Positions 52,162-57,508 of a DNA stretch of 64,000 nt are shown piece by piece. Each line of letters opens with the position of its first letter. The first letter of the stretch is position 1. The notes under the pieces were generated by a model that was given only the letters and a program-made list of their open reading frames with translations, did no database searches and had not been told where the DNA came from. A program made the position numbers and the translations under genes. Source of the stretch: Methanocalculus taiwanensis (GTDB taxonomy: Archaea; Halobacteriota; Methanomicrobia; Methanomicrobiales; Methanocorpusculaceae); NCBI RefSeq assembly GCF_024372745.1, contig NZ_VOTZ01000004.1, positions 62,001 to 126,000 of the forward strand, in the 5' to 3' direction.

Positions 52162-52677
52162 TTAAGCATCCTCTCCTGCCTTAAAAAAACCTTTTGGCAC
52201 CAGAATCTCAAATTTCGCCCCCTCACTATATACCCCGATCTCACGAATGGCAATCCCGGTTATTGCGAGGATCTCACGAGCAAGGAAGAGCCCAAAACCT
52301 GTATTTTGACCAATACCAGGTTTGAATATCAGCTCTTTATCATCATCCGAAATGCCGTACCCATCATCCTCATAGAGGATCACAAGGCCGTCTTCTGTCT
52401 CATTACAGCTAATACGGACCTGTGTTGCTTTACCTGCATGCCGGAGCGTATTATCCATCAGGTTTGAAAAAACCTTCTCAATCATCGGATCGGCATAGAT
52501 GGCAACTCCCGGGCAGTCATTTATCACAGGCAGCAGACCCCCACACATTCGTCCGATCAGCCCGGATAGTGAGAGCCATGCCGGTTCATAAGCCCCCAGT
52601 TTCTCATATTCCCTTGCAAAGGCAAAATGATAGTTGTTCTGAGGGTGAGAGATAGTATAATTGTTCCTATTTCCCCC
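52162..52677 (-). pseudogene. 3' remnant of a histidine kinase gene
   Basis: An open frame from 52677 reads a kinase tail: FAFAREYEKLG, then the N box MIEKVFSNLMDNTLRHAG, G1 EDDGYGIS, and GFGLFLAREI with a closing VPKGFF. The H-box and everything upstream are missing, and the first ATG (52548) lies well inside the conserved region. The stop codon that bounds the frame is at 52678-52680. It is 17 bases from the stop of the SSF transporter. I take it as a 5'-truncated fragment. Confidence 0.75.
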
Positions 52678-54394: not shown

Positions 54395-55876
54395 TTACGT
54401 GAGATCGGAGATTGTATCTTTCATTTCAAGAGAGAAATCACGGCATTTTGCTGCAATCTCGGTTTCAAAGTCACGAGTCATGGAGTAATAATGCCCGGTG
54501 CAGCAGAGATGCCGGGTGATCGGAAGATCTGGGATATGAATATCTTCAAAAAGAGCACAGAGATCCCCAGTTCCCTCTTTGAGGTACAATTTTTTCAATG
54601 ACTGATATATGCAGGACATATACAAATCAGTTGCATCCTTCATCCCCGGGTAATCAACAGATGAGATTCGGGAGACGGCAATAAGCAGAATGATCAATGG
54701 ATGATACTGGATCCGGTTTGCTCCCAGATAGTAATAATTGAATGGTGTGACATTTCCATTCTCTCTATCATCGAAGATATCTCGGAGATCATCTGGCAAT
54801 TGGTATAGATATCCCGATCGAAAGACGTGCCTGAGGAAACCCCCGGTTATATCCATTCCCCCTAAAACGGCAGCGATAATCCGGGTATAGGCTCCCTTCA
54901 GGGCTGCCTGAACATACAGATCCTCATCTGAGAGAGTATCCTGAAGGCTCCATTGCCCACCCTTTAATGATGAAATGGCAAGTACCGAAAATGCCATTGA
55001 AACCATAGTCCATCTCATTGGAGGAAGCATATCCCGTAATCTGACAAGCGCCTGCTCGGTGAAAGCCATGAGCAAATCGTCAGAAAAGACGAACAACTCA
55101 CCCCTCCTGCTCTCAAGTATCTGCATAATACGGCTGTAATAACGTTCTTTTTCAATACCCGAATAGCCAGGATCATCAATTATCTCATCGAAAAGATATT
55201 CAACCCCAAAACACCCGCCAATCTCAATTATTTGGTGCAGATCAAGCCCGTGACTTTCATAACCATACCGGTACACTCCCATGAGAGAACCAAGATATTT
55301 AGCAAATAAACCTCGCTCAAGATATCGTTTCGGACAGAAATCAATGAATGTGATAATCCCGTCACGTAACATTTCTGCCTCTTTACCATTACAGCCGGTT
55401 ACCTTCCGGAATATGTGGGTAAATGTATCGATAGTGAAAAAATCTTCATCTGATGATGCTGAAGACCTGATTCGAAATGAAAGGGCCATCATCTGAAGCT
55501 TTCTTTTAAAGATCTTTATATCAGCTGAGCTTCGGATAACTCCTTTATCCCGGAGAGAGGCATACCGATAATATGAGAGAGCGTCTCTATACAATTCATA
55601 ATTGGTAATATAACGCTCAATTATTTCTTGGATCGAGCCATTGCTGCGTCGTAGAAATCGATGAATACGATACCGTCTCTTCAGTCTCCTTTTATTTTCA
55701 CTGATGCTTCGAATAAGGGTATCCGGATCATAACCCCCTGCTCCAAAATGTAATAAATCCCAAAAATCATGCTGAAGGTATTCATATGAAAGATCGTACA
55801 GATGCTGATTTGATATTCTTCCATAGAGACAATCGAGCACCCTCTGCAGCCTGTACCCCTCAATTGATTGATACAT
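54395..55876 (-). CDS. Isoprenoid-synthase-like protein, paralog 2 (unusual N-terminal half)
   Basis: 493 residues. The C-terminal half carries class I isoprenoid synthase signatures: the first motif reads DEIIDD (Asp230, Glu231, Asp234, Asp235) and the second YQLPDDLRDIFDD (Gln359, Asp362, Asp363, Asp366). The N-terminal half (1-200) is helical and basic (RRLKRRYRIHRFLRR) and matches no family I know. The first motif has a Glu in place of the second Asp. Known trans-prenyltransferases are about 300-350 residues, so this is a large variant. The start lies 72 bases after the stop of its paralog. Confidence 0.7.
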   Translation of the reverse strand: MYQSIEGYRLQRVLDCLYGRISNQHLYDLSYEYLQHDFWDLLHFGAGGYDPDTLIRSISENKRRLKRRYRIHRFLRRSNGSIQEIIERYITNYELYRDALSYYRYASLRDKGVIRSSADIKIFKRKLQMMALSFRIRSSASSDEDFFTIDTFTHIFRKVTGCNGKEAEMLRDGIITFIDFCPKRYLERGLFAKYLGSLMGVYRYGYESHGLDLHQIIEIGGCFGVEYLFDEIIDDPGYSGIEKERYYSRIMQILESRRGELFVFSDDLLMAFTEQALVRLRDMLPPMRWTMVSMAFSVLAISSLKGGQWSLQDTLSDEDLYVQAALKGAYTRIIAAVLGGMDITGGFLRHVFRSGYLYQLPDDLRDIFDDRENGNVTPFNYYYLGANRIQYHPLIILLIAVSRISSVDYPGMKDATDLYMSCIYQSLKKLYLKEGTGDLCALFEDIHIPDLPITRHLCCTGHYYSMTRDFETEIAAKCRDFSLEMKDTISDLT

Positions 55877-55948
55877 CAGTCATAACACCCATATTCTGAA
55901 TCCGTAGATTAGATGCCAGGCTTTTCCGCACAATTGTTTCCTTTGTTG

Positions 55949-57508
55949 TCAATGGCCATATACTGAGGCGTTACTACACCCGCAACGGAGCATAACAGCA
56001 CAATCTGAAAATGCCTTTGCAGCTTCTGCTTCAATATCTACGATCAGATCACTACATGCCGCAATCAATTCAAGCTCTTTTAAGCAACAATTCATGGGAA
56101 ATTTCATATCCAGAAGGAAACCTTGCGTATTATTTCCTTTGTTTTTAAGGGTGAGCTGCCGTATCGAATGAGTGAGGCGCATTATCCAGAGCCTCCGTGC
56201 ATCAGGAATAGCCAAAAGATTTTCATCTGATATCCGGCTGATTGCTGCAAGAAACAGAGAGATTGGATGGATTTTTGGATCTGTTTGGTTCAGGTAATAG
56301 TACGTGAATGGAGTGATTGTCAGATTATGTAGATCATCGGTAATATCACGGAGATCATCTGTCAATTGATAGATAAGCCCTGCCCTCATACAAAAAGAGA
56401 GAAAAACATCATCAATTGTATATCCGGCTAAAATTGCTGGAATAATACGGGTATAGGCTGCTTTAATAGTGGCGATTGAATAGAGCTCCACACCAGTTAA
56501 TGTATCTGAGGGAGCCCATTGTGATCCGATATATGTCGCCCTTGCAATGGCAAGATATGAACGCGACACCATTCTGGCACGCTCTTCATCAAGGATCATA
56601 CGAATCCCGGAAAAAGCCGCTTCTGAAAATGCCATTAATGGATCATCTGAATAATGTGGGCATGTAACATCTTCTGACTCCAGAATACTAAATACATTCC
56701 GGGCATACAGGTCTTTCTCAGTTTGATTATACATCGGATCATCGATGATATCATCATAGAGATATGTTGTTGCGAAATATCCGGAAAGACGTGCAATATC
56801 ATGATAATTCGTTTTTCCACTCCTCTTCGAATACGCAAAGACCCCAAAAATGGATCGCATGAATTTACCAAAGACCCCGTTTTCGAGGTATTTTTCAGGG
56901 CAGACAGAGATAAATTCCCTGATATATGAATAGAGGGAAAGAAAGGGTTCCTCCTCATCGGTTCTTAAAAATTGTTGCGCAATCCGGAGAAATAATGCTG
57001 GAGATTCTATCAGATTTTGCTGAAAATCACGCTCCATCCCTTTCAGGACATCTGACCATTCCGGGATCTCCGCTCCAATCATGAGAGCGGATGCATCAGC
57101 ACCAAAATCCCTCATCATTGAAAAACGGATTAGTTTCTCTTCTGCCGATCGGATCTCCTCTGATCGCATTTTATATTCAAAACCAGTCTTCAGTAATCTG
57201 TCAATAGTTTTTAAAACTGTTTTTATCCTCATCAGATGCTGAAGTCTTCTCCTCTCTGACCGAATCTCCCAATATATTGCATCAGGATTATAACCAACCA
57301 TTATGAAGTCACAGAGTTCCTCATAATCCTTTTGCGCACATGTATATGAGATAGAAAAAATATCAGTATTTGGCGTTTTTTCGGTAAGGGAATGCATCAG
57401 ATCCTGAATAGTCATAAATTGCACATCCTTTGAGAGGGTGTATTGATGGTATGCCGGTTGATCTGTCGGTGACCACCTGTTCTCTCCTGGAAAACAGTGC
57501 ATTGTCAT
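55949..57508 (-). CDS. Isoprenoid-synthase-like protein, paralog 1 (intact aspartate motifs)
   Basis: 519 residues. The first motif is a full DDxxD (DDIIDD, Asp252-253 and Asp256-257), and the second YQLTDDLRDITDD has Gln381 and Asp384-385, Asp388. These bind the diphosphate through magnesium in the isoprenoid synthase fold. The N-terminal 200 residues parallel those of paralog 2 (GYNPDAIYWEIRSERRRL against GYDPDTLIRSISENKRRL), so the two arose by duplication. The homologous part begins near Met32, so the start could be 57415. Substrate and product are not known. It precedes paralog 2 and follows the BCCT gene on the same strand. Confidence 0.7.
   Translation of the reverse strand: MTMHCFPGENRWSPTDQPAYHQYTLSKDVQFMTIQDLMHSLTEKTPNTDIFSISYTCAQKDYEELCDFIMVGYNPDAIYWEIRSERRRLQHLMRIKTVLKTIDRLLKTGFEYKMRSEEIRSAEEKLIRFSMMRDFGADASALMIGAEIPEWSDVLKGMERDFQQNLIESPALFLRIAQQFLRTDEEEPFLSLYSYIREFISVCPEKYLENGVFGKFMRSIFGVFAYSKRSGKTNYHDIARLSGYFATTYLYDDIIDDPMYNQTEKDLYARNVFSILESEDVTCPHYSDDPLMAFSEAAFSGIRMILDEERARMVSRSYLAIARATYIGSQWAPSDTLTGVELYSIATIKAAYTRIIPAILAGYTIDDVFLSFCMRAGLIYQLTDDLRDITDDLHNLTITPFTYYYLNQTDPKIHPISLFLAAISRISDENLLAIPDARRLWIMRLTHSIRQLTLKNKGNNTQGFLLDMKFPMNCCLKELELIAACSDLIVDIEAEAAKAFSDCAVMLRCGCSNASVYGH

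Follow-up and report, generated by a model that had tools for sequence, protein, structure and literature searches.

In methanogens, isoprenoid synthases serve to make membrane lipids, and geranylgeranyl diphosphate (GGPP) is the main prenyl diphosphate of archaea. Heteromeric prenyl synthases have a second subunit that helps to support or shape the active site. Examples in which one subunit is non-standard have been described (PMC7839719). In elongating enzymes, the arginine of the first motif, GKxxR, probably contacts IPP, and its counterpart in fungal IDS-like terpene synthases influences whether the activity is coupling or terpene synthase/cyclase (PMC7484799). Class I terpene synthases are recognized by a metal triad, N/DDxxS/TxxxD/E, as their second motif (PMC7484799). 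The literature that we searched on archaeal, viral and heteromeric enzymes does not contain the family described here, and in the literature searched we found no report of Methanomicrobiales with a dedicated terpene-type enzyme.

The window (the whole 64,000-nucleotide stretch of Methanocalculus taiwanensis DNA that was analyzed) carries two adjacent minus-strand open reading frames, arranged head to tail. A preliminary description had singled them out as a tandem pair of large paralogs at 54395-57508, and the ORF list of the window places them exactly there. The two proteins, here called A (upstream) and B (downstream), are 32% identical over 492 aligned positions (E = 4e-77).

Paired genes and their motifs

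The genes and the features discussed below are as follows.

55949-57508, minus strand: gene A, upstream paralog, open reading frame of 519 aa from the first ATG at 57508
55949..57415, minus strand: probable true coding sequence of gene A, about 488 aa from ATG 57415 (from ortholog starts, AAGGATG and low pLDDT)
54395..55876, minus strand: gene B, downstream paralog, open reading frame of 493 aa, 72 bases after A
56951..57415, minus strand: A residues 32-186, all-helical N-terminal region by predicted secondary structure, without a library match
56855..56869, minus strand: A residues 214-218, GKFMR, aligned to the IPP-binding GKRxR of isoprenyl diphosphate synthases (hhalign, motif table)
56738..56755, minus strand: A residues 252-257, first aspartate-rich motif DDIIDD, with invariant positions, in register with isoprenyl diphosphate synthases
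56462..56464, minus strand: A K349, invariant in A and B, aligned to the lysine of the K-T motif of isoprenyl diphosphate synthases
56333..56368, minus strand: A residues 381-392, second aspartate-rich motif QLTDDLRDITDD (profile alignment, motif table)
55952..55966, minus strand: A C-terminal end ...VYGH; V-x-G-H ends 7/7 A proteins and is absent from B
55289..55303, minus strand: B residues 192-196, AKYLG at the GKxxR position, Arg to Gly in 5/5 full-length B proteins
55172..55189, minus strand: B residues 230-235, first motif DEIIDD, the E fixed in 5/5 full-length B proteins
54767..54802, minus strand: B residues 359-370, second motif QLPDDLRDIFDD (motif table)

A and B are real genes, since full-length orthologs of both are present in other genomes and the two closest pairs have dN/dS values of 0.19 for A and 0.25 for B; both are under purifying selection. 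Together they form a probable operon. Translation of A probably begins at ATG 57415 (residue 32 of the longer frame), because a Shine-Dalgarno-like AAGGATG lies ahead of this codon at 57430-57424, most A orthologs start at the corresponding place (those of L012, L013 and G058 have 486-487 aa), and residues 1-25 of the longer frame are predicted to be disordered (pLDDT < 50). The B gene of genome G033 was considered as a pseudogene and this was rejected, as the apparent in-frame TAA sits upstream of the start of the gene.

Both aspartate-rich motifs of class I isoprenoid synthases had been reported for each protein, and both are indeed present: A carries YDDIIDD and YQLTDDLRDITDD, and B carries FDEIIDD and YQLPDDLRDIFDD. 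The family alignments are shallow (12 sequences, namely seven A and five full-length B), and within them the positions of the metal-binding aspartates are invariant across A and B. The first motif reads DDI[IL]DD in every A and DEIIDD in every B, so that positions 1 and 5 of DDxxD are kept throughout. The second, of the FQxxDDxxD type, is [YF]QL[TP]D[DE]LRD in all members, being QLTD[DE]LRD in A and QLPDDLRD in B. At the GKxxR site, GK[FW]MR is found in 7/7 A proteins and AKY[LI]G, from which the arginine is gone, in 5/5 B proteins. The altered first motif of one copy, to which the preliminary description drew attention, is thus a genuine asymmetry of the pair, but not the decay of a single copy, since every one of the five full-length B proteins has DExxD. 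Because DExxD and the Arg-to-Gly change are fixed together in these, B is an old, specialized lineage, and the motif differences between A and B are fixed lineage differences rather than decay.

Other elements of elongating synthases are missing. RRG after the first motif is absent from 12/12 sequences, with an invariant EK nearby, and GK...KKT after the second motif is replaced in every member by [VI]T[PA]FxY. The N/DDxxS/TxxxD/E triad of class I terpene synthases is likewise not found at the second motif, which reads DDLRD and has Asp where Ser/Thr is expected. The loss of RRG and of the lysines distal to the second motif could also mean that catalysis has been lost.

Kinship with isoprenoid synthases

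Searches of Pfam, NCBIfam, PHROGs, PADLOC and PDB sequences gave no family above its cut-off for A or B. The commonest weak Pfam match across the family is PF00348; A stays below its gathering score with 15 bits (E = 0.014) and B has no match, and the best ortholog, A of G058, reaches 25.9 bits against a cut-off of 27 (E = 6.5e-6). In a profile-profile comparison by hhalign, the 12-sequence family aligned with 32 archaeal isoprenyl diphosphate synthases at a score of 46.7 over 174 columns (E = 2.8e-5 for that pair of alignments). The maximum in 100 column shuffles was 24.3, and the reversed alignment scored 20.5. GKxxR, the first aspartate-rich motif (FARM, DDxxD), the lysine and the second aspartate-rich motif (SARM, QxxDDxxD) fall in register in this alignment. 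The family profile also detects the canonical GGPP synthase of genome G417 (E = 3.3e-5).

The AlphaFold2 models have a pLDDT of 81.0 and a pTM of 0.84 for A, and of 85.6 and 0.87 for B. In the model of A, the first motif lies on a short helix, 250-255, and the second at the end of helix 367-387. The best 50 PDB matches listed for each model are all class I isoprenoid synthases, mostly with a Foldseek probability of 0.9-1.0. Proteins of the all-helical class I fold, BjKS, trichodiene synthase and CyS, are among the top matches (probability 1.00, E above 1e-3). The E-values of the PDB matches are modest, none being < 1e-3, and the best TM-score, 0.60 by target length, denotes a loose superposition. 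In the viral library BFVD, the top matches of the A model are uncharacterized proteins of Pithovirus LCPAC403 (A0A481ZCB8, E 1.1e-4) and Cedratvirus kamchatka (A0A6G8MX44, E 8.7e-4), and an orpheovirus protein named terpenoid synthase comes next; the pithovirus and cedratvirus matches are the strongest structural ones of A, with E-values that are not strictly comparable between BFVD and the PDB.

The profile-profile score, the PDB matches of the AlphaFold models and the near-cut-off PF00348 score of one ortholog together support homology of A and B to trans-isoprenyl diphosphate synthases, and the kinship to class I isoprenoid synthases proposed beforehand is supported. The models support the fold class; with modest E-values and low TM-scores, they are compatible with either the elongating synthase or the cyclase branch.

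Both proteins share an additional N-terminal part, which the preliminary description put at 200 residues unlike anything known. That it is common to A and B and has no match in any library searched was borne out; its size is nearer to 155 residues, since residues 187-218 already contain the first core helix of the synthase and GKxxR. It has no similarity to isoprenyl diphosphate synthases. An origin by internal duplication was rejected, as the region has no similarity to the C-terminal part of its own protein.

Distribution and probable horizontal spread

The family was found in 7/232 genomes of the class, always in Methanomicrobiales and always in the order A-B. Named carriers are Methanocalculus, Methanoculleus sp. 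FWC-SCC1 (L013) and two Methanomicrobiaceae MAGs. In five genomes A and B stand in tandem, so that the pair is conserved in other methanogens. In a second Methanocalculus (G006), A stops 53 bases short of a contig end, and another contig has a B-type C-terminus at its edge; this genome therefore probably has both genes. In genome G461 (84% complete), a histidine kinase follows directly after A, without a tandem B. A 394-genome sample of the phylum gave no further carrier; of its weak matches, those in G278 and G296 were rejected as unrelated proteins or frames, and that in G417 as an ordinary GGPP synthase. Scanned with a single sequence, about 85,000 species genomes gave no match; scanned with an alignment, they gave four loci. 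No relative was found among the viral contigs and plasmids searched. A and B each form one clade (support 100/100); these clades are old and separate.

A canonical PF00348-matching synthase is present elsewhere in 7/7 carrier genomes (fragmentary in the incomplete G451), and therefore the pair is not the housekeeping enzyme but accessory. The GC3 values of the pair, 0.37 and 0.41, are the two lowest in the window, 4-5 SD below the 0.575 +/- 0.045 of the 45 other ORFs; A of G006 (locus L014) is equally deviant (z of -4.7, with only three other ORFs as reference). The GGPP synthases of the two Methanocalculus are 93% identical, whereas their A proteins are 49% identical, less than either the 52% to A of Methanoculleus or the 54% to that of L012. 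These GC3 outliers and the discrepancy in identity indicate that the pair was probably acquired horizontally, and the simplest reading is that Methanocalculus acquired different versions of it independently. In Methanoculleus sp. FWC-SCC1, an IS21-type transposase with an ATPase-like partner lies directly upstream of the pair (L013:7638-9874, minus strand). The unit is best read as mobile and non-essential.

In the window, the pair does lie between osmolyte-type transporters, as first noted, namely a sodium:solute symporter (PF00474) and a BCCT betaine-type transporter (PF02028), but neither of these neighbours recurs in any other genome. A functional context in osmolyte transport was rejected, as no ortholog has it. 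The flanking genes differ in every genus among the carrier loci compared, and the osmolyte setting is hence incidental. The flanks are a transposase and glutamine synthetase in Methanoculleus and PAS or kinase proteins in other carriers, and both g3 genomes have a methyltransferase/D-Ala-D-Ala-ligase fusion downstream of the pair. No terpenoid-modifying or lipid gene recurs near the pair in the carrier loci.

Some further observations concern these surroundings. The fusions (L010:6011-7960 and L009:4856-6829, both minus strand) join a methyltransferase to a D-Ala-D-Ala-ligase C-terminal domain, which is odd for an archaeon. At 52162-52548 (minus strand) the window has a 128-aa frame that resembles a histidine kinase reduced to its C-terminal ATPase part and is possibly a remnant. 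Beside the B-type fragment of G006 (L031, contig C171), a nuclease-type short frame and an AAA-ATPase-like frame were seen by eye, and the latter recalls, again by eye only, abortive-infection genes; the pair may be part of a variable island. A Methanocalculus without the pair has a squalene/phytoene synthase family gene (G007:C4:25544-26287), and the genome of the window has none.

Proposed function and comparison with known systems

We give about even weight, for and against, to the reading that the pair is a horizontally spread class I prenyl-diphosphate enzyme, with A catalytic and B a specialized partner, which ionizes its substrate and then takes it to a non-elongating fate. The family would have been derived from trans-isoprenyl diphosphate synthases with the gain of an N-terminal helical domain. 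A would be the catalytic subunit, in which Mg2+ held between DDIIDD and QLTDDLRDITDD would ionize an allylic prenyl diphosphate, probably GGPP supplied by the separate housekeeping synthase. As the pair lacks the RRG and GK...KKT of elongating enzymes, ordinary chain elongation is probably not what quenches the cation; cyclization, elimination or its transfer to a second substrate may do so instead. B, with its fixed DExxD and AKxxG, may be a specialized partner, with the same role in supporting or shaping the active site as the second subunit of heteromeric prenyl synthases. Catalysis, the substrate, the heteromer and the division of labour between A and B are all points that we infer. A further-reaching version is put forward tentatively: the pair may be the founding example of an archaeal family, new to science, whose members are heteromeric class I terpene cyclases or irregular prenyltransferases and have an N-terminal domain without precedent. 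Methanogens would then have a secondary (non-lipid) terpenoid pathway that is passed from lineage to lineage.

It is unlikely that the pair is instead a heteromeric chain-elongating prenyl diphosphate synthase (HexA/HexB- or HepS/HepT-like), adding IPP to a specific polyprenyl chain. Both aspartate-rich motifs are kept, there is precedent for heteromeric synthases with one non-standard subunit (PMC7839719), and A keeps GKxxR, whose arginine contacts the IPP pyrophosphate and whose equivalent decides between coupling and cyclase activity in fungal IDS-like terpene synthases (PMC7484799). However, every member lacks RRG after the FARM and GK/KKT after the SARM, B is not a truncated, motif-less subunit, and no quinone- or polyprenyl-using gene is linked. 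Slightly less likely still, in our judgement, is a class I fold without catalysis, for example prenyl-diphosphate-binding sensors tied to PAS/histidine-kinase proteins. Some catalytic basic residues are gone, and PAS, receiver or kinase genes adjoin the pair or A upstream in G058 and L014, downstream in L012 and directly downstream of A in L015. No such gene directly flanks the pair in the window, G033 or L013, though, and the aspartates at every metal-ligand position are invariant, a constraint with no obvious reason in a protein that merely binds. Moreover, HATPase_c genes number 35-53 in 6/7 carriers and 18 in an incomplete one, so that chance neighbours are likely; with such genes this common in carrier genomes, their proximity is a weak lead.

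Two other explanations fared worse. Head-to-head condensing enzymes of the squalene/phytoene synthase type are suggested by the resemblance of QLTDDLRDITDD to the QLTNxLRDxxED of that family and by the lack of PF00494 in 6/7 carrier genomes, yet PF00494 matches no family member, and the SQS_PSY profile scored 28 over 49 columns, within the shuffled range (maximum 33), against 46.7 over 174 for isoprenyl diphosphate synthases. We rejected this kinship on the profile comparison and regard the explanation as very improbable. That A and B are decaying, non-functional isoprenyl diphosphate synthase paralogs would account for the loss of several canonical residues and the low similarity to any family, but full-length frames persist in several genera with fixed lineage-specific motifs, and the purifying selection seen in the dN/dS values refutes it in substance; we attach next to no probability to it.

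On the favoured reading of an ionizing, non-elongating enzyme, the pair, being mobile and separate from the housekeeping synthase and having its catalytic aspartates conserved, would be a candidate terpene-type enzyme of Methanomicrobiales. The residue that separates coupling from cyclizing enzymes in fungi is one at which A and B differ, so the pair would also be a compact system in which to follow the conversion of an elongating enzyme to another use, and the family is small enough for one expression experiment to reveal whether it has enzymatic activity.

Compared with squalene/phytoene synthases (PF00494), the pair shares the fold superfamily and a similar-looking QL..LRD..D string, but differs in a profile comparison that stays inside the shuffled range and in the failure of PF00494 to match any member. 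Class I terpene synthases of bacteria, fungi and viruses (BjKS, trichodiene synthase, CyS and the fungal IDS-like enzymes) match in fold with similar scores, and the absence of the IPP-handling RRG from A and B is as expected of ionizing, non-elongating enzymes; the second motif, however, is DDxxD rather than the N/DDxxS/TxxxE triad, and no Pfam terpene-synthase model matches A or B above cut-off. The heteromeric prenyl synthases (HexA/HexB, HepS/HepT, the plant GPPS large and small subunits) likewise consist of two paralogous subunits, one with canonical and one with altered motifs. In contrast to them, B is as large as A and has nearly complete aspartate motifs, quinone genes are not linked, there is no sequence closeness beyond the fold, and the A/B complex is a putative one, suggested by co-occurrence of the genes in tandem. 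Trans-isoprenyl diphosphate synthases (PF00348; archaeal GGPP synthase) are the best profile-profile match of the family and share with it the class I fold, the FARM and SARM, the invariant lysine, an FQxxDD-type motif and, in A, GKxxR. The pair differs from them in scoring under the Pfam cut-off, in having no RRG, K-T threonine or GK...KKT, in its extra N-terminal helical region, and in being a patchy, apparently mobile tandem pair and not the housekeeping copy. A and B are a new, small and divergent family inside a known superfamily, and not a new kind of system.
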